Below are positions 33,447 through 44,178 of a DNA stretch of 64,000 bases, piece after piece (the stretch's first letter is position 1; the number at the start of each line of letters is the position of its first letter). Both the position numbers and the translations under genes were made by a program. The stretch is from assembly GCF_009996735.1 (NCBI RefSeq), contig NZ_JAACYI010000016.1, positions 1-64,000 on the forward strand. The letters run 5' to 3'. This stretch comes from Cellulomonas sp. APG4. Lineage in GTDB: Bacteria; Actinomycetota; Actinomycetes; Actinomycetales; Cellulomonadaceae. The notes under the pieces were generated by a model, which did no database searches, was not told where the DNA came from, and saw only the letters and a program-made list of their open reading frames with translations.

Positions 33447-33815
33447 GTGGACGAGGAGTACCTCGAGGCCGTCCTCGACGTGGTCGCCGCCATCCCGCCG
33501 GGGCGGGCGATGACCTACGGCACCGTGGCCGACGTCGTCCACGAGGTGCTGGGCCGGGGCGGCCCGCGTCAGGTGGGGCGCGTCATGGCGCGGGCGGGCG
33601 GTGACGTGCCGTGGTGGCGCGTCGTCAACGCGTCGGGCGACCCGCCCGCACGCCTGCGTGACGAGGCCGTGCGACGCCTGCGTGCGGAGGGGTGCCCGCT
33701 CACCGACGACGAGCGGGCCGAGCAGCCGCAGCCGCGTGTCGTCCTGCGTCGTGCGCTGTGGTGGCCCGACGAGAAGCCTGACGCGACGGTCAGCGGAGCG
33801 CCCGGCGTGAGCTGA
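33447..33815 (+). CDS. Alkyltransferase-like protein (ATL, MGMT fold without active cysteine)
   Basis: 122 residues, GTG start 8 bases after the phosphatase stop. PPGRAMTYGTVADVV, RQVGRVMARAGG and VPWWRVVNASG are the conserved MGMT C-terminal domain motifs, but the PCHR active site reads PWWR (55-58), so the alkyl-accepting Cys is Trp56. ATL proteins bind O6-alkylguanine, flip it and hand the lesion to nucleotide excision repair. The end overlaps the convergent CoA-binding gene by 26 bases. Confidence 0.9.
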   Translation: MDEEYLEAVLDVVAAIPPGRAMTYGTVADVVHEVLGRGGPRQVGRVMARAGGDVPWWRVVNASGDPPARLRDEAVRRLRAEGCPLTDDERAEQPQPRVVLRRALWWPDEKPDATVSGAPGVS

Positions 33816-34353
33816 TCACCCCGGTGTCGAACCCCGCGAGCCGGAGCCCACCGTGGAAGCGGGCGTGCTCGATCTTGACGCACCGGTCCATGACGACGTC
33901 GAGGCCCGCGGCCTGGGCCGTGCGGGCGACCTCCTCGTGCCACGAGCCGAGCTGGAGCCACAGCGTCCGTGCCCCGGCGGCCAGGGTCTCCTCGAGCACG
34001 CCCGGCAGGTCGTCGTGGCGTCGGAAGACGTCGACGAGGTCGGGCACCACCGGCAGGGCGCTCAGCGACGGGTACACGGGTCGCCCCAGGATCTCCTCTG
34101 CACGCGGGTTGACGAAGTACACGTCGTAGGGCGAGGACGAGAGCAGGTACGTGGCCACGAAGTAGCTCGCGCGCGACGGGTTCGGCGAGGCCCCGACGAT
34201 CGCGATCGAGCGCGTCCGGCGCAGGATCTCGAAGCGAGCGTCCGCGTTCGGGCCCGCCCACGTGCGGGGAGCTGGAGCGCTGGCCACCGCGGTGCCGCTC
34301 GTACCGGGCAGCGCGCAGGCCGCTCCGGCCGGGGCCGTGGTCGCGTCGCTCAT
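33790..34353 (-). CDS. CoA-binding domain protein (YccU/YneT-like)
   Basis: 187 residues. A disordered Ala/Pro N-terminus precedes a Rossmann CoA-binding fold: IAIVGASPNPSRASYFVATYLL, VYFVNPRAEEILGRPVYPSL, TLWLQLGSWHEEVA and VVMDRCVKIEHARF. Related proteins bind CoA or CoA thioesters and their role is unclear. The ATG overlaps the metY stop by 4 bases (ATGA), making it the last gene of the sulfur operon. Coexpression with Acs and MetY suggests a link to CoA or acetyl transfer (inference). Confidence 0.85.
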   Translation of the reverse strand: MSDATTAPAGAACALPGTSGTAVASAPAPRTWAGPNADARFEILRRTRSIAIVGASPNPSRASYFVATYLLSSSPYDVYFVNPRAEEILGRPVYPSLSALPVVPDLVDVFRRHDDLPGVLEETLAAGARTLWLQLGSWHEEVARTAQAAGLDVVMDRCVKIEHARFHGGLRLAGFDTGVISSRRALR

Positions 34354-35750
34354 GCCGTCTCCTCCGCCGTCGCTACGCCGTGCGTACGTGGGGTGCCGGC
34401 GGGGCCGACCGCACGCGTGAGTGCCTGGTCGAGGTCCCACCAGATGTCCTCGACGTCCTCGAGCCCGACGCTGATCCGCACCAGGTCCTCGGGGACGCCC
34501 GCGGCGACCAGCTGCTCGCCCGACAGCTGCTGGTGCGTGGTCGACGCGGGGTGGATCACGAGGGTGCGGGCGTCGCCGATGTTCGCGAGGTGGCTCGCGA
34601 GCTGGAGCGACTCGATGAACGTGCGACCGGCGGCGCGCGCGGGCACGGCGTCGCTCCCGCGCAGACCGAACGCGAACACCGCCCCAGGACCCTGCGGCAG
34701 GTAGTGCGCGGCGCGGGCGTGGTGGGGGTGCGAGGGGAGGCCGGCCCAGTTGACGTAGGCCACGCGCGGGTCGGCCTCGAGCCGCTCGGCGATCACGCGG
34801 GCGTTGGCGAGGTGCGCGTCGACGCGCTGCGGGAGCGTCTCGACGCCCTGGAGCAGCTGGAAGGCCGACTGCGCGGGCAGCGCGGGGCCGATGTCGCGCA
34901 GCTGCTCCGAGCGCAGCTTGGTCAGGAACCCGTACTCCCCGAAGTTCTCCCACCACGAGACGCCGCCGTACGCGGGCACCGGCTCGGTCATCTGCGGGAA
35001 CCGCCCGTTGCCCCAGTCGAAGCGACCGCTCTCGACGACGACGCCGCCCAGGGTGGTGCCGTGGCCGCCGAGGAACTTGGTGACCGAGTGGATCACCACG
35101 TCGGCGCCGTGCTCGATCGGCCGGCACAGGTACGGGGTCGCGAGCGTCGCGTCGACCACGAGCGGGACTCCCGCGGCGTGCGCGACCTCGGCGAGCCCCG
35201 CGAGGTCGGCCACCTCGCCGGACGGGTTCGAGACGACCTCGGTGTAGACGACCTTCGTCTCGGGCCGGATCGCCGCGGCGTAGTCGGCCGGGTCCGTGCC
35301 GACGACGAACGTGGTCTCGACGCCGAAGCGGCGAAGCGTCACGTCGAGCTGGGTGACCGTGCCGCCGTAGAGGCCCGCGGAGGCGACCACGTGGTCACCC
35401 GCGCCGCACAGCGCGGCGAAGGTGAGGAACTCGGCCGACATGCCCGAGGCGGTCGCGACGGCCCCGATGCCGCCGTCGAGCGAGGCGAGGCGTTCCTCGA
35501 GCGCGGCGACCGTGGGGTTCCCGATGCGCGAGTAGATGTTCCCGTACTTCTGCAGCGCGAAGAGGTTCGCGGCGTCCGCGGTGTCCTCGAAGACGAAGCT
35601 CGTCGTCTGGTAGATGGGCACGGCGCGGGCGCCCGTCGTGGCGTCGGGCACGCCACCGGCGTGCAGCGCACGGGTCCGGAACCCCCAGCGGCGGTCGCCG
35701 TCGGGCGTGGTCCCGGAGGCGACCGCCTCGGTCGTCTCGTCCGTGGTCAT
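34350..35750 (-). CDS. metY: O-acetylhomoserine sulfhydrylase (PLP-dependent)
   Basis: 466 residues of the Cys/Met metabolism PLP family: [59 protein letters not shown] and the PLP lysine Lys225 in [11 protein letters not shown]. Length and the [20 protein letters not shown] segment match MetY rather than cystathionine synthases. It condenses O-acetylhomoserine with sulfide (or methanethiol) to homocysteine (or methionine), releasing acetate. Overlaps both neighbours by 4 bases, so it is translationally coupled to acs upstream and the CoA-binding gene downstream. Confidence 0.93.
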
Positions 35751-37819
35751 CCTGCGGTCTCCTTCACGGCCAGGGGCGGGCCCTCGGGGCCGGGACGGGT
35801 GTGCCGGCGGCGGTGCGCCGCGAGCACACGGGCGATCCGGTCGACGACGGCGTCGTCCTGCAGCGAGGTCACGTCGCCCAGCGTGCCTCCCGAGAGCAGG
35901 TCGCCGAGCAGGCGTCTCATGATCTTCCCCGAGCGGGTCTTGGGCAGGTCGGGCACCACGAGGACGTGCCGGGGCTTGGCGACCGGCCCGATCTCGCGGG
36001 CCACGTGGGAACGGAGCTCCTCGGTGAGGGCCAGCGCGTGGTCCACCCAGGCGTCGTCGTCGTGCGCGTGCTCAGGTCGCCGGGCCGGGATCACGAAGGC
36101 CGCGACGGCCTGGCCCGTGGTGGGGTCGCTCACGCCGGTCACGCCGGCCTCGCCGACGGCGGGGTGCGCGACCAGGGCCGACTCGATCTCGATGGTCGAC
36201 AGGCGGTGCCCCGACACGTTCACCACGTCGTCGACGCGGCCGAGGAGCCACACGTCGCCGTCGGCGTCACGCCGGGCGCCGTCGCCCGCGAGGAACCAGC
36301 CCTGGGCGGCGAACCGCGACCAGTAGGCGTCGCGGTACCGCTCGGGGTCACCCCACACCGTGCGCGCCATGCCTGGCCAGGTACGGTCGACGACGAGCAG
36401 GCCGCCCGCGCCCGGGGGCACGTCGTCGCCGTGCTCGTCGACCACGCGGGCCGAGATGCCCGGCAGGGGTCGTGCGGCCGACCCGGGCCGCAGGGTCGTG
36501 ACGCCGGGCAACGGGGCGATCATCGCCGCCCCCGTCTCGGACTGCCACCACGTGTCGACGACAGGGGCGTGGCCGCCGCCGATCTGCTCGCGGAACCACA
36601 CCCACGCCTCGGGGTTGATCGACTCACCGACGGTGCCGAGCAGGCGGATGCTGCGCAGGTCCCACGTGTCCGGCACGCCGTCCGGGAACCAGGTCATGAG
36701 CGTGCGTACGAGGGTGGGGGCCGTGTAGTAGACGGTCACGCCGTAGCGTTCGATGATCTCGAGGTGGCGGCCGGTGTGCGGGCTCGCGGGGGTCCCCTCG
36801 TAGATGACCTGCGTCGCCCCGTTGCTCAGGGGTCCGTAGATCTCGTACGTGTGGGCCGTGACCCACGCGAGGTCGGCGGTGCACCAGTAGACGTCGTCGT
36901 CGCGGTGGTCGAAGAGCGCCCAGTGCGTCCACGACGCGTGCGTCAGGTAGCCGCCGGTCGTGTGGACGAGGCCCTTGGGCCGACCCGTGGTGCCCGACGT
37001 GTAGATGATGAACAGGGGGTGCTCGGCGTCGAAGGCCTCGGCCTCGTGCACGTCCGCGGCCGCGTCGACGGCGTCGTGCCACCAGACGTCCCGGCCCTCG
37101 GTCCACGGCACGTCGTCACCCGTGCGTCGCACCACGAGCACGTGCTCGACGGCGAGGCCCGCGACGGCGTCGTCCGCGGTCGGCTTGGTCGGGACGGCGA
37201 CCCCGCGACGGAACTGCCCGTCGGAGGTGATCAGCACCTTCGCGCCGGTGTCGGCGAGCCGGAAGCGCAGCGCCTCGGCCGAGAAACCGCCGAAGACGAG
37301 CGAGTGGACCGCCCCGATGCGGGCCACCGCGAGGGTCGCGACGACGGTCTCGACGAGCACGGGCAGGTACAGGACCACCCGGTCGCCGGGCCGGACGCCG
37401 AGCGCGAGGAGCGCGTTCGCGGCGCGCGAGACCTCGCGCTGGAGGTCGGCGTAGGTCACCGTGCGCCGGTCGCCCGGCTCACCCTCGAAGTGCAGGGCCA
37501 CCTTCTCGCCCAGACCCGCGTCGACGTGGCGGTCGACGCAGTTCACCGCGGCGTTGAGCCGCCCGCCCGCGAACCACTCGGCCCGGGGCGCCGTCAGGCG
37601 CTCGGGGTCCTGCGGGTCCGGTGCGGCCGGGGCCCACGTGTGGGCCGTGTGCCACGGCTCGGCCCACGTGAGCCGCCGGGCGAGGCGCTCCCAGAAGGCG
37701 ACGTGGTCGGCGTCGGCCTCCGCCGTGAGCCGGGCGTGGTCGGACGGCCCCACGTTCCACGAGCCGTCGGGGGCGGGGTAGGAGCGCTGCTCGTCGAGCA
37801 GGTGCGAGATCGTCACCAT
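35747..37819 (-). CDS. acsA: Acetyl-CoA synthetase
   Basis: 690 residues. AMP-forming motifs: IIYTSGTTGRPKGLVHTTGG (P-loop), VDTWWQSETGAAMIAP, GRVDDVVNVSGHRLST and the acetylatable lysine in PKTRSGKIMRRLLGD. The SYPAPDGSWNVG start is somewhat atypical, but the domain order is that of Acs. It converts acetate, ATP and CoA to acetyl-CoA. The start lies inside the end of ssuC and the stop overlaps metY, so it is embedded in the sulfur operon, where it could recapture acetate released by MetY. Confidence 0.92.
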   Translation of the reverse strand: MVTISHLLDEQRSYPAPDGSWNVGPSDHARLTAEADADHVAFWERLARRLTWAEPWHTAHTWAPAAPDPQDPERLTAPRAEWFAGGRLNAAVNCVDRHVDAGLGEKVALHFEGEPGDRRTVTYADLQREVSRAANALLALGVRPGDRVVLYLPVLVETVVATLAVARIGAVHSLVFGGFSAEALRFRLADTGAKVLITSDGQFRRGVAVPTKPTADDAVAGLAVEHVLVVRRTGDDVPWTEGRDVWWHDAVDAAADVHEAEAFDAEHPLFIIYTSGTTGRPKGLVHTTGGYLTHASWTHWALFDHRDDDVYWCTADLAWVTAHTYEIYGPLSNGATQVIYEGTPASPHTGRHLEIIERYGVTVYYTAPTLVRTLMTWFPDGVPDTWDLRSIRLLGTVGESINPEAWVWFREQIGGGHAPVVDTWWQSETGAAMIAPLPGVTTLRPGSAARPLPGISARVVDEHGDDVPPGAGGLLVVDRTWPGMARTVWGDPERYRDAYWSRFAAQGWFLAGDGARRDADGDVWLLGRVDDVVNVSGHRLSTIEIESALVAHPAVGEAGVTGVSDPTTGQAVAAFVIPARRPEHAHDDDAWVDHALALTEELRSHVAREIGPVAKPRHVLVVPDLPKTRSGKIMRRLLGDLLSGGTLGDVTSLQDDAVVDRIARVLAAHRRRHTRPGPEGPPLAVKETAG

Positions 37820-38727
37820 CGGCGCAGCAGCCTCCGCTCGGCCACACCGACCAGGGCGTCGGTCGTCTTGCCGAGGACGGCGAGCAGCACGATCGCGAGC
37901 AGGATCCGGTCGATCCGGCCGCTGTACTGCGAGTCGTTGAGGAGGAACCCGAGGCCCATCGAGGACGCGATGAGCTCGGCAGCGACCAGGAAGAGCCAGG
38001 CCTGCGCGAGCGCGAGGCGCAGACCGGCCACGACGGCGGGAGTCGCGGCGGGCAGCTGGACCCGGGTCAGCAGACGGACCCCGCGCAGGCCGTAGGCCCG
38101 GCCGGCCTCGACGAGCTGCGGGTCGACGTGCCGCAGCGCCGAGGCGACGGTCGTGTACACGGGGAAGAAGGCGCCGATGGCGATGAGGGTGACCTTCGAG
38201 TCCTCGCCGATCTTGAGCCAGATGATCAGCAGCGGGACCCACGCGAGCGAGGGCACGGCGCGCAGCGCACCGAGGGTGCCCGACAGGAGCACGTCGCCCA
38301 GGCGGGAGAGGCCGACGACGGCACCGAGCGCGAGCCCCACGAGCGAACCGATGGTGAAGCCGAGCAGCACGCGCTGGGTCGAGATCTGGATGTGCGTCCA
38401 GAGCTCTCCGCGCTGCGCGAGGTCGACCCCCGCCTCCCACACGGCCCCGGGCGCGGGCAGCTGGTGCGCCGGCACCGCGCCGGTCACGGCGGTGGCCAGG
38501 TGCCAGGCGAGCAGGACGAGGGCGGGGACCACGAGGGTGAGGGCGAGGCGGAGCGGTCGCCGGGCGAGCGGGTCGCGGCGTGCACGCTCCACGGCCGGCG
38601 TGCCGTACGACGAGACGGCGACCTGCGTCGCGCCGTCCTGGTGCGGTACCCGGCCCTGCGCGTAGGTGCTCTCGGGGCGCTCGTCGTCGACGGTGGCCGT
38701 CGCCGTGGAGCCCTTGGTGCTGGTCAT
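37813..38727 (-). CDS. ssuC: ABC transporter permease, sulfonate/nitrate/taurine type
   Basis: 304 residues. A ~60-residue hydrophilic N-terminus is followed by about six membrane helices of the BPD_transp_1 fold. The cytoplasmic EAA loop reads VEAGRAYGLRGVRLLTRVQLPAATPAVVAG, where the ATPase docks. The closest functional class is SsuC/TauC/NrtB. It overlaps acs by 7 bases. A 108-base gap with a hairpin separates it from the binding-protein gene. The transported sulfur compound cannot be told from sequence. Confidence 0.88.
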   Translation of the reverse strand: MTSTKGSTATATVDDERPESTYAQGRVPHQDGATQVAVSSYGTPAVERARRDPLARRPLRLALTLVVPALVLLAWHLATAVTGAVPAHQLPAPGAVWEAGVDLAQRGELWTHIQISTQRVLLGFTIGSLVGLALGAVVGLSRLGDVLLSGTLGALRAVPSLAWVPLLIIWLKIGEDSKVTLIAIGAFFPVYTTVASALRHVDPQLVEAGRAYGLRGVRLLTRVQLPAATPAVVAGLRLALAQAWLFLVAAELIASSMGLGFLLNDSQYSGRIDRILLAIVLLAVLGKTTDALVGVAERRLLRRW

Positions 38728-38835: not shown

Positions 38836-39882
38836 TCAGTCGCCGACGTTCGCGGCGTCGGCGTCCTCGGCGAAGCTCGGCTCGAAGAGCGTGTCCAGGG
38901 CGGCGTCGATGTCCTCCTGCGACCGGACGTCGCCCGACTCCACGAAGATCGGTCCGACGACCTCGAGCACGGCGCGCTGCGCGTCGCCCGGGGCCGGGTC
39001 GAGGTCGATCACCGTGCGCTCCTTGATGACCTTCTCGGCGATCGCGAGGTCGATGCCCGCGACGTCGGCGAGGATCTGCGCGGTCTCGTCGGGGTTCTCG
39101 AGCGCCCACGCACGGGCCTTCTCGTACGCGTCGAGCACGAGCTGCGCCACGTCGGGCGACTCCTCGAGGAACTGCTCACGCGCGTTCAGGAAGCCGTAGG
39201 TGTTGAAGTCGATGTTGCGGTAGATCAGCTGCGCACCGTTGTTGACCTCGGTGTCGGCCATGATCGGGTCGAGACCCGCCCACGCGTCCACGCTGCCGTT
39301 GTCGAGCGCGACGCGACCGTCGGCGTGCTGGAGGTTCTGGACCTCGACGTCGTCGAGCGTGAGGCCGTGCTCCTCGAGCGTCTGCAGCAGGAAGAAGTAC
39401 GGGTCCGTGCCCTTGGTCGCGGCGATCGACCGGCCCGCGAGGTCGTCGACCGACGTGATGTCGGAGTCGGCCGGGACGACGATCGCGGACCACTCGGGCT
39501 GGGTGTAGATGCCGACGGTCGAGATGGGCGAGCCGTTGGCCTTGGCGAGGAGTGCGGCCGATCCGGCCGTCGAGCCGAAGTCGACGGCGTCCGAGCGGAG
39601 GGCCTCGTTCGCCTTGTTCGACCCGGCCGACTGCACCCAGGTGACCTCGACGTCGTCGCCGAGCTCCGCCTCGAGCCAGCCCTGGTCCTTGATGATCAGG
39701 CTCAGCGGGTTGTACGTCGCGAAGTCGATGTTGAGGGTGTCCGTGCTCCACTCGCCGTCGGTGGTCGCACCGGGCGCGGGGTCGTTCTCGACGGCGGCGT
39801 CCTCACCGGCTGCGCAGCCGCTGAGCATCAGCGCCGCGGCGGCGGTCGCGGCGGTGACGTGCAGTGCTGTGCGGATCTTCAT
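38836..39882 (-). CDS. ssuA: Substrate-binding lipoprotein of the sulfonate-type ABC importer
   Basis: 348 residues. The signal peptide MKIRTALHVTAATAAAALML ends in a lipobox LSGC with Cys23 as lipidation site, so the protein is membrane-tethered outside the cell. The mature domain is the NMT1/SsuA/TauA periplasmic-binding fold: TLNIDFATYNPLSLIIKDQG, FGSTAGSAALLAKANGSP, IAATKGTDPYFFLLQTLEEHG and AWAGLDPIMADTEV. It captures a sulfonate, taurine or related anion for import. Context with MetY and the sulfur leader favours an organosulfur substrate. Confidence 0.88.
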   Translation of the reverse strand: MKIRTALHVTAATAAAALMLSGCAAGEDAAVENDPAPGATTDGEWSTDTLNIDFATYNPLSLIIKDQGWLEAELGDDVEVTWVQSAGSNKANEALRSDAVDFGSTAGSAALLAKANGSPISTVGIYTQPEWSAIVVPADSDITSVDDLAGRSIAATKGTDPYFFLLQTLEEHGLTLDDVEVQNLQHADGRVALDNGSVDAWAGLDPIMADTEVNNGAQLIYRNIDFNTYGFLNAREQFLEESPDVAQLVLDAYEKARAWALENPDETAQILADVAGIDLAIAEKVIKERTVIDLDPAPGDAQRAVLEVVGPIFVESGDVRSQEDIDAALDTLFEPSFAEDADAANVGD

Positions 39883-39949: not shown

Positions 39950-40789
39950 TCAGTCCGTGAGAGCGGTCGAGTGGTGGGTGGGGACACCGAGCCCGTCGAG
40001 CAGCTCGGCACGGAGGTGGGCGAGGTCGGCGTCGCCGCGGTCGCGGGGCCGTGCGCCCGGCACGGTCACGACGGACCGCACGGTGCTGGGCGTGCCCTTC
40101 GGGCTGCCCTGCGGACGTCCGAGCAGGACGACGCGGTCGGCGAGGTAGAGGGCCTCGTCGACGTCGTGCGTGACGAGGAGGACCGTGGCCGGTTCGGCCG
40201 CGTGGACCTCGAGCAGGAGGTCCTGCATGCGCAGGCGGGTCAGCGCGTCGAGCGCGCCGAACGGCTCGTCGAGCACCAGCACACCCGGGTTGCGGGCGAG
40301 GGCGCGGGCGAGCGAGGTGCGCTGGGCCATGCCGCCCGAGACCTGACGCGGCCGCAGGTGGGTGCACTCGCCGAGGCCGACCAGCTCGAGCAGCTCGCGC
40401 ACGCGCCGCTCACCGGTCGTCCGGTCGGTGCCCCGCGGGAGCCCGACGGCGACGTTCTGGGCGAGCGTGCGCCACGGGAGCAGCCGGGGCTCCTGGAAGG
40501 CCACGGCGCACCGGGCGTCGACGCCGTCCACCGCGCTGCCGTCGATGAGGATGCGGCCCTCCGTCGGGACGTCGAGACCGCTCACCTGCCGCAGGAGGGT
40601 CGACTTGCCGCAGCCCGACGCGCCGAGGAGCGCGACGATCTCCCCGGTGGCGATCTCGAGGTCGACGTCGGCGAGCACGGGGGTCGCGGTGTGGCGACCG
40701 TCGCGGGCGGGGAAGGTGCGCCCCACGCCCTGCACCGAGACGGGGTGGGCGGGGTGGTGCCTGACGGTCGTGGGGGTGGTGATGGCCAT
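39950..40789 (-). CDS. ssuB: ATP-binding subunit of the sulfonate-type ABC importer
   Basis: 279 residues. Walker A is GASGCGKST, the Q-loop FQEPRLLPWRTLAQNVAVGL is typical of SsuB/TauB/NrtD, the signature is VSGGMAQRTSLARAL, and Walker B is VLVLDEPFGALDALTR, with a switch His in LLVTHDVDEAL. It drives uptake through the SsuC-type permease. It is the first structural gene of the operon, 212 bases after the stop of the Met/Cys-rich leader ORF. Confidence 0.9.
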   Translation of the reverse strand: MAITTPTTVRHHPAHPVSVQGVGRTFPARDGRHTATPVLADVDLEIATGEIVALLGASGCGKSTLLRQVSGLDVPTEGRILIDGSAVDGVDARCAVAFQEPRLLPWRTLAQNVAVGLPRGTDRTTGERRVRELLELVGLGECTHLRPRQVSGGMAQRTSLARALARNPGVLVLDEPFGALDALTRLRMQDLLLEVHAAEPATVLLVTHDVDEALYLADRVVLLGRPQGSPKGTPSTVRSVVTVPGARPRDRGDADLAHLRAELLDGLGVPTHHSTALTD

Positions 40790-40960
40790 GGGGGTCCTCG
40801 GGGCTGCGGGCGCGGGGGCGCGCCGGTCCGGTCGGTCGGCGTTCCGGTGGGTCGGCACTCCCGCGGACGTGCACGGGGGCCGGGCTCGCGCGGGGCTCGC
40901 AGGGCCTCGAGGGGCAGCGACGCGTGGGCGACGAGCGGGCTGGGGTTCCGCCGACACCTG

Positions 40961-40999
40961 GGTCCGTCATCGGACCGCGGACGCCCGCCCGTGGGGCGG
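40961..40999 (-). promoter_or_regulatory. Two tight hairpins directly after the Met/Cys-rich leader ORF
   Basis: CCGCCC-GTG-GGGCGG (40985-40999) begins two bases after the leader stop codon. A second perfect hairpin GGTCCG-TCAT-CGGACC lies at 40961-40976. Such stems next to a regulatory leader are expected of a ribosome-controlled attenuator. The remaining 5' region to 40790 holds no gene that I can support. Confidence 0.55.
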
Positions 41000-41001
41000 C
41001 G

Positions 41002-41082
41002 TCAGGCGCCGGCGCGTGGCATGCAGCCACACATGGAGGCCATCATCGGCAGCGCCATCGTCATGTCACGGTGACAGAGCAT
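41002..41082 (-). CDS. Met/Cys-rich leader peptide of the ssu-acs-metY operon
   Basis: 26 codons, ATG to TGA, preceded by GGAGGGGAGG ending about 8 bases before the ATG. The peptide begins MLCHRDMTMALPMM and ends CMPRAGA; it holds 7 Met (positions 1, 7, 9, 13, 14, 17, 21) and 3 Cys (3, 18, 20), far above chance. It is too short for the usual gene finders. It precedes sulfur-uptake and MetY genes on the same strand, so it probably senses charged tRNA-Met and/or tRNA-Cys by ribosome stalling. An upstream 7-bp inverted repeat, GTCTCGG/CCGAGAC, spans 41108-41134. Confidence 0.72.
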   Translation of the reverse strand: MLCHRDMTMALPMMASMCGCMPRAGA

Positions 41083-41256
41083 CGGCGCTACCTCCCCTCC
41101 ACGTCAGGTCTCGGGTCGTCTTGACATCCGAGACTGCAGTCCGGCCCTTGGGACCGACTCGGCGAAGGTAGCGTCCGGTGGCGTCGTCGCACAAGGCTCT
41201 CGGCTCGACGGGTCACATCGCGAGACGGGGGAGGGGGCCGGGGCTACGCTTCCGCC

Positions 41257-44028: not shown

Positions 44029-44091
44029 AGCGCTGGCGGAGTCCGTCGGGACGACCGCGCGGCGCCGGGGCGTCGCGCGGGTGCCAGCGCT
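44029..44091 (-). promoter_or_regulatory. Putative attenuator stem abutting the polycysteine leader stop
   Basis: AGCGCTGGC (44029-44037) and GCCAGCGCT (44083-44091) are a perfect 9-bp inverted repeat; the second arm directly touches the leader stop codon. A nested 7-bp repeat, CCGCGCG/CGCGCGG (44055-44061 and 44074-44080), lies inside. A ribosome stalled on the Cys codons would cover the proximal arm and block the hairpin, which would let transcription reach cysK (inference). Confidence 0.6.
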
Positions 44092-44178
44092 CTAGCGACA
44101 GCAGCAGGCGGTGCGGCGGGACAGGGGGAGGAGGCGGTGCGCGGACGGCACGGCAGGCGCTGCGGCCGTGCGGTGCAT
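44092..44178 (-). CDS. Polycysteine leader peptide of the cysK-cysE operon
   Basis: 28 codons, ATG to TAG, with a strong GAGGAGG at 5-base spacing. The peptide starts MHRTAAAPAVPS and ends LSRRTACCCR, with three consecutive Cys codons (TGC TGC TGT) three codons before the stop. Cys-rich leader ORFs that sense cysteine supply are known upstream of sulfur genes in mycobacteria; this one precedes cysK-cysE on the same strand and has its own promoter. It should report charged tRNA-Cys levels through ribosome stalling near the stem at 44029-44091. Confidence 0.8.
   Translation of the reverse strand: MHRTAAAPAVPSAHRLLPLSRRTACCCR

Follow-up and report, generated by a model that had tools for sequence, protein, structure and literature searches.

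A candidate ribosome-mediated attenuator with Met and Cys codons before the ssuB-ssuA-ssuC-acs-metY operon of Cellulomonas sp. APG4

The known sensors of methionine supply are mostly riboswitches or repressors, and the S-adenosylmethionine (SAM) riboswitch RF00162 binds SAM directly. For cysteine, mycobacterial polycysteine leader open reading frames (ORFs) before sulfur operons are reportedly leaderless, contain Cys codons only and act by Cys-responsive attenuation. In this study, we analyzed a leader ORF rich in both Met and Cys codons that precedes an ssuB-ssuA-ssuC-acs-metY operon in 64,000 nucleotides (nt) of DNA from Cellulomonas sp. APG4 (contig NZ_JAACYI010000016.1, positions 1 to 64,000; the window means this whole stretch). 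Like the polycysteine leaders, it is a short ORF with Cys codons before a sulfur operon. Unlike the Cys-only type, it contains Met codons too and has a conserved helix over its stop. The Shine-Dalgarno (SD) sequence before the ORF in all 15 Actinotalea copies compared below would speak against a leaderless transcript here, a promoter having been placed by eye. The run of Cys codons typical of mycobacterial polycysteine leaders is absent from the window leader, which has three separated Cys codons; short Cys runs occur in the leaders of some relatives (CCC in L017) and in a second leader of the window, before cysK (CCC).

Polycysteine leaders are cited, as Canestrari et al. 2020, in the accessible part of PMC13236596. 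The accessible part of Seliverstov et al. 2005 (PMC1262725) describes Cys leader peptides in Mycobacterium, Propionibacterium acnes and Bifidobacterium longum, proposes Rho-dependent attenuation for them and reports no conserved RNA structures before Actinobacteria methionine operons, unlike what is found here. As in our leader, their Cys codons lie near the stop without an obvious terminator; theirs precede cys or cbs genes. A 2021 study of Streptomyces lividans (PMC8079986, accessible in part) predicts a leader, metL (MSTTSDRTPATEATTTPGARCMCRRMCAF), before metNIQ, which its authors call methionine-dependent. Like the leader studied here, metL is a short leader that carries both Met and Cys codons, in its case ahead of an operon for Met import, and lacks a typical Rho-independent terminator; it differs in its sequence and operon and in being described as leaderless and in terms of methionines and threonines, and the part available presents no conservation analysis. 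Moreover, uORFC-8-2 before cysS of Rhodobacterales (PMC8632094, accessible in part) resembles our leader in placing tandem Cys codons within the first stem of a structured leader, and differs in ending in an intrinsic-terminator-like stem with a U-run, in its restriction, within that part, to Cys codons and in its alphaproteobacterial hosts. Cys leaders are thus already established, and the predicted metL, in the part of PMC8079986 available, already combines Met and Cys codons, which weakens the claim of the initial annotation of the window that a mixed Met/Cys leader had not been described. The element itself was not found described among the matches listed for Met, mixed Met/Cys, Cellulomonas and Actinotalea leaders in a literature covered in part, and metL was the only predicted Met leader found in print among those matches.

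The leader region of the window comprises the following features.

41002..41082, minus strand: leader ORF of 26 codons, product MLCHRDMTMALPMMASMCGCMPRAGA and stop; every same-genus genome with an orthologous ssuB (15 of 15, own included) has a homologous ORF
41091..41100, minus strand: SD sequence of the leader, GGAGGGGAGG; a purine-rich SD precedes each of the 15 leaders
41014..41032, minus strand: hairpin A, GUGUGGC-UGCAU-GCCACGC, over codons TGT GGC TGC ATG CCA CGC, with covariation
41004..41015, minus strand: 5' arm of helix B, formed by the RAGA codons and the first base of the stop
40948..40959, minus strand: 3' arm of helix B, AGGTGTCGGCGG, its last G unpaired in the window
40961..40976, minus strand: hairpin P2, GGTCCGATGACGGACC

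The ORF, its coordinates, its SD, seven Met codons (start included), three Cys codons and the downstream operon had all been given correctly in the initial annotation. To place the leader in its genus, 19 same-genus (Actinotalea) genomes were compared, own included, 15 of which hold a close ssuB (at least 79.9% identity). The RNA model matched once in each of these 15 genomes and not in the four without a close ssuB (G001, G008, G015 and G017), and it gave no match under an expectation value (E) of 0.04 in the remaining 70 of the 89 genomes. Three weak matches outside the genus (E 0.04-0.1) were taken as chance. The 15 sequences share the core MALPM(M)..(M)CGC...CMPRAGA and show synonymous codon changes at Ala, Leu, Pro and Ser; inserts of two to three codons in the loop of hairpin A (TGC TGT with or without one further codon) leave the reading frame intact. 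All 15 sequences keep the ATG that precedes the last Pro codon, although its A and T fall in the hairpin A loop, so the last Met reflects a coding constraint. A Cys codon directly precedes it in 13 of the 15, the exceptions reading TGT CAG ATG (L021) and ATG CAG ATG (L022). A simple search pattern, TGYNNNTAGAGCGCTGG...CAGCGCT, matched 8/19 genomes (8/13 of the same genus, own included) and was discarded as too strict for GCC variants and other loop lengths. Judged by this conservation, the leader ORF is real, and the short ORF with conserved SD, start and stop that an attenuator calls for is present.

Next to the base composition of the window, which is DNA of a high-GC actinobacterium, the codon content of the leader is unusual. 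Under a base-composition model (G+C 0.738), the chance of at least six internal Met codons in 25 is p ~1.1e-8, and that of at least nine Met and Cys codons in the leader is p ~3.4e-8. Ranked by Met+Cys fraction, the leader comes first among the SD-led ORFs of the window with 15-45 codons (41 in all). Across 80 loci (L058-L137), at least 20% Met+Cys was reached by only 13 of 900 SD-led ORFs of that length, and 10 of the 13 are metY-operon or cysK leaders of relatives. Internal Met accounts for 66 and Cys for 41 of 381 residues in the 15 Actinotalea ssu (metY-operon) leaders, each of which has three to six Met. The leader of L023 (GTG start) was added by eye. The leader is enriched in codons for the amino acids that its operon serves.

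Such a composition would also suit a peptide with a function of its own, perhaps a small protein that binds metal through Met and Cys. The reading frame, however, overlaps covarying RNA, matches once per genome and always before the same operon, has a Cys-only cousin before cysK and yields a peptide without a Pfam or NCBIfam match, all of which leaves a peptide function highly improbable.

The conserved RNA structures are hairpin A within the ORF, helix B across the stop and P2 farther downstream, and RNAalifold recovered all three unprompted from the 15 sequences (alignment A2). Helix B pairs the last codons (RAGA-stop) with GGUnGCCAGCGC, 40-80 nt downstream; the C-terminal RAGA is therefore largely an RNA constraint. 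For hairpin A, 94.1% of cells are paired (at most 62.4% in slid versions), and both-side changes occur in four cells, a number reached in 0/500 shuffles. Similarly, 92.9% of the cells of helix B and P2 are paired (at most 44.0% in slid versions), with five both-side cells, four in B and one in P2, again reached in 0/500 shuffles. The change in helix B replaces UA by CG in four sequences and is synonymous on the coding side (GCT to GCC). Collectively, these comparisons indicate that conserved RNA helices overlap the putative control codons and the stop. The Met/Cys ORF thus proved conserved, with synonymous variation, in 15/15 same-genus genomes, own included, and was accompanied by covarying helices, which answers positively the comparison proposed as a check in the initial annotation. 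A hairpin placed there two bases past the stop (GCCGCCCCACGGGCGGGC) did not hold up, because the surrounding stretch varies in sequence and length; some hairpin appears at this place in single folds of several relatives.

Two further explanations are best weighed against these structures. Covarying helices are what a riboswitch-like RNA that binds its ligand directly would have, the ORF then being incidental. This is very unlikely given the in-frame indels, the synonymous changes and the conserved SD, start and stop, and given that an Rfam scan of the whole window returned two tRNAs only, with no family at gathering score over the leader. A permissive Rfam scan of 40700-41240 gave only ybhL and SECIS_3, both far under their gathering scores, and the SAM riboswitch models RF00162 and RF00634 had no match at the leader. 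Alternatively, the conserved ALPM core and the C-terminal CMPRAGA could mark an arrest peptide whose nascent chain responds to a metabolite (SAM, for instance) and not to codon supply. The R of PRAGA is, however, kept in only 11/15 (otherwise C, S or G), pairing in helix B accounts for the RAGA codons, and other genera have a different core but keep Cys and Met codons. We regard arrest by the peptide as improbable.

The position of the codons relative to helix B was counted from the first base of each codon to the helix. By script, Cys codons lie 16 and 10 nt and a Met codon 7 nt before helix B in 9/15 Actinotalea leaders, with a further Met at 19 nt in five of the nine. L001, L012 and L014 are off by one or two bases through the pair taken as first; in L012, the earlier position is occupied by His instead of Cys. 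Inspection by eye places Arg 16 nt and Cys 10 nt before helix B in L018 and Cys 13 nt and Met 7 nt before it in L021; in L022, three Met codons lie 7, 13 and 19 nt before the helix, with no Cys anywhere from 7 to 19 nt. A ribosome covers ~12 nt past the first base of its A-site codon. With this coverage, a stall at the cluster would leave helix B mostly free, and a ribosome at the stop would cover it.

We consider it fairly likely that the leader is a cis-acting, ribosome-mediated attenuator that reads Cys and Met, its output left aside. A ribosome would translate the 26-codon leader and, when charged Cys-tRNA or Met-tRNA is short, stall on TGT GGC TGC ATG, ~7-16 nt short of the helix B 5' arm. 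Such a stall would open hairpin A and leave helix B largely free to form. With both amino acids ample, the ribosome would reach the stop inside helix B and block or reset the helix, whose state would decide the expression of ssuB-ssuA-ssuC-acs-metY. In this proposal, helix B would play a part like that of the 2:3 helix in classical attenuators. What the comparison shows directly is the reading frame with its codons and the RNA elements; we infer that the ribosome stalls and senses both amino acids, and likewise the direction in which expression changes.

The clearest competitor is that the leader effectively works as an attenuator for Cys alone, with Met codons that are tolerated or otherwise used and with no relevance of Met supply. 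It would be in keeping with the second leader of the window, which lies before cysK-cysE.

44092..44178, minus strand: second leader ORF, MHRTAAAPAVPSAHRLLPLSRRTACCCR and stop, before cysK-cysE; SD-led, ending CCCR and stop
44029..44091, minus strand: helix B counterpart of the cysK leader; AGCGCTGGC after the TAG stop pairs with GCCAGCGCT at 44037-44029

The element TGT-codon-TAG (CGG in L154)-AGCGC[TC]GG precedes cysK in 19/19 same-genus genomes, own included, and an SD-led ORF passes the filter in 15; the 19/19 concerns the 5' element, the 3' arms having been found with a search pattern of their own. In L146, L147 and L150, whose 5' arm has C for T, the 3' arm has G for A in two and a mismatch in one; in L163, T stands with G. 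The SD filter missed the cysK leaders L146, L147, L150 and L152, which are absent from the Met/Cys statistics. The 15 same-genus cysK leaders that passed have one internal Met and 58 Cys in 386 residues, and four cysK leaders from other genera have no internal Met in 106 residues. By its sequence, the cysK-cysE leader is a Cys-only sibling that shares the helix B design with the metY-operon leader. A related cysK element was seen outside the family, in L168, where CCCCL and a stop are followed by AGCGCTAGC. In 14/15 same-genus genomes having both genes, cysK lies within ~6 kb of ssuB on the same contig.

A Cys-only function would also agree with the 16 ssu leaders from outside Actinotalea, most of them belonging to the same family, in which Cys dominates (55 Cys and 20 Met in 499 residues). 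Against it stand the Met count of each Actinotalea ssu leader and the last Met, kept in 15/15 in loop bases. With the cysK leaders, which have a similar helix B, as a matched control, the difference in Met between ssu (66/381) and cysK (1/386) leaders gives a Fisher p of 1.5e-20, with residues that are not independent, and a per-leader Mann-Whitney p of 7.7e-7. In particular, L022 (by eye) has Met at three positions of the stretch where it has no Cys. The operon, moreover, makes homocysteine (metY), and its transporter has a SAM riboswitch, likewise a sensor for the Met pathway, in front of it in 13 of the 22 loci selected from other families. On balance, a leader responding to Cys only appears unlikely, though it is the least unlikely of the alternatives.

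Several observations weigh against an attenuator that reads Cys and Met through helix B. Counted by pairs, both-side changes affect only two pairs in hairpin A (as high in 13/500 shuffles) and two in B and P2 (44/500), and further pair types in B and P2 fall below shuffles (4 vs 4.8). The UA-CG change in helix B amounts to ~3 events on the ssuB tree, yet well-supported branches force just one. A duplex in the B region is more favourable in energy than dinucleotide shuffles (p 0.05) in 0/15 Actinotalea ssu, 1/16 other ssu and 5/19 cysK leaders; helix B thus rests on conservation and covariation, not on stability. The best single-duplex script assigned another pairing than helix B to L018, L021 and L022 and also gave other pairs in the non-Actinotalea ssu leaders except L071, L072, L082, L092, L029 and L032, so energy alone does not identify the helix. 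Hairpin A and helix B overlap by only two bases, and 3:4 pairing beats shuffles in 1/15 Actinotalea sequences; mutually exclusive helices of the classical trp/his type were not found. Among the folds listed, a 3:4-type helix is suggested by single-sequence folds, without a statistic, in the Cellulomonas loci L071 and L072 only. No U-run follows helix B, where all 15 sequences are C-rich, so there is no classical intrinsic terminator in these sequences; Rho-dependent and translational types need none. The ssuB SD (GAGGA, 40795..40799, minus strand) opens less with a stall in 11/15 Actinotalea leaders (Wilcoxon p 0.083). Non-synonymous changes occur at many N-terminal codons and at the Leu of ALP in 3/15, and two Promicromonospora-type loci of the same family (L026 and L031, both from one genus) show no leader by eye. 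Furthermore, Met starvation would slow initiation as well.

Masking of the ssuB SD was modelled for 31 leaders (the first Cys position of L022 being one inside helix B) and is unsupported as a general output. The 45 nt past helix B contain 49-62% C and 22-31% G in the 15 Actinotalea sequences, which would suit Rho; compare the Rho proposal for mycobacterial Cys leaders in the accessible part of PMC1262725. The output would probably be either Rho-mediated termination within the C-rich leader or ssuB translation. The initial annotation had read the locus as a dual Met/Cys attenuator. This reading is partly supported: a conserved Met/Cys ORF tied to conserved helices has good comparative support, and an output by termination or SD masking did not emerge, with the U-run missing, 3:4 pairing no better than shuffles in 14/15 and the SD comparison at p 0.083.

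To reveal how far the arrangement extends, loci of the wider family were compared. Fifteen Cellulomonadaceae/Promicromonosporaceae loci with upstream DNA have an SD-led, Cys-bearing leader and one, from Promicromonospora (L091), has none; L081 and L084 begin at a contig end. The order ssuBAC-acs-metY is common to the leader-bearing family loci that reach far enough (L062 ends in acs), and L091 has metY and no acs. The six leaders named above for the single-duplex search have a helix B counterpart preceded by Cys and/or Met at a distance of 10-19 nt, and the fold of L028 shows one too.

The SAM riboswitch is like the leader in its place before the orthologous ssu-type transporter: RF00162 lies upstream of the ssuB orthologue in 13 of the 22 other-family loci (L030, L093, L102, L105, L107, L110, L112, L114, L124, L126, L129, L130 and L131). 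The match in L129 runs 7 bases beyond the estimated ssuB start. These 22 loci were chosen, not random, from the non-family members of the 80 loci, with L030 added, and five of them (L030, L110, L111, L113 and L126) were picked for an already visible motif; L030, L110 and L126 exceed the gathering score at ssuB, and the only matches of L111 and L113 lie elsewhere. In contrast to the leader, no SAM riboswitch was matched in any of 22 family-side loci (15 Actinotalea and 7 others scanned). We give about an even chance to the wider reading that one leader is a two-input sensor, in which Met or Cys shortage acts through one codon cluster and one helix, replacing the SAM riboswitch of other families, with the Cys-only sibling governing cysK-cysE. 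Adjoining leaders of one design, one Cys-only and one with Met plus Cys, together with the SAM riboswitch of other families, would form a natural, testable series on the exchange of sensor inputs in evolution, and the series bears on whether a single ribosome is able to combine signals from two amino acids. In L030 (1170-1362, plus strand), a SAM riboswitch (1170-1259) is followed a few bases later by an SD-led ORF ending CRCCL and stop, before ssuB; these might be tandem Met and Cys sensors. The Arthrobacter and Glutamicibacter loci L110, L107, L131 and L130 have two to four SAM riboswitches per 17 kb neighbourhood around the ssu operon.

The operon downstream of the window leader consists of six genes, with no sulfonate monooxygenase among them. 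The acs query lacked the first 11 residues and that of the CoA-binding protein the first 8.

39950..40789, minus strand: ATP-binding cassette (ABC) importer ATPase, ssuB-like; scores under the NCBIfam cut-offs listed
38836..39882, minus strand: SsuA-family substrate-binding protein; TIGR01728, 215.2 bits, cut-off 163.5
37813..38727, minus strand: ABC importer permease, ssuC-like; scores under the NCBIfam cut-offs listed
35747..37819, minus strand: acs, acetate--CoA ligase; TIGR02188, 828.7 bits, cut-off 724.95
34350..35750, minus strand: metY, O-acetylhomoserine sulfhydrylase; TIGR01326, 568 bits, cut-off 495.1
33790..34353, minus strand: CoA-binding domain protein, last gene of the operon; PF13380

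Between cysK-cysE and the metY operon, a 361-aa (amino acid) ORF lies on the opposite strand (42263-41178, plus strand).

An inverted repeat also stands upstream of the leader.

41108..41134, minus strand: GTCTCG...CGAGAC in the 5' untranslated region, candidate operator or RNA stem

TCTC[AG]N4-6[CT]GAGA occurs upstream of 18/31 leaders, the window copy, with a longer spacer, lying outside the 18; the background is 32 places in 1.25 Mb of loci, partly including these leaders. The published NdgR motif differs from the palindrome (PMC4340878, accessible in part). The palindrome GTCTCRNNNNNYGAGAC occurs at six places in the genome, one of them beginning 31 bp before an IclR-type regulator gene (L142); Pfam, applied to four ORFs that flank its sites, gave a sulfur link for none of them. 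The palindrome might be a repressor operator.
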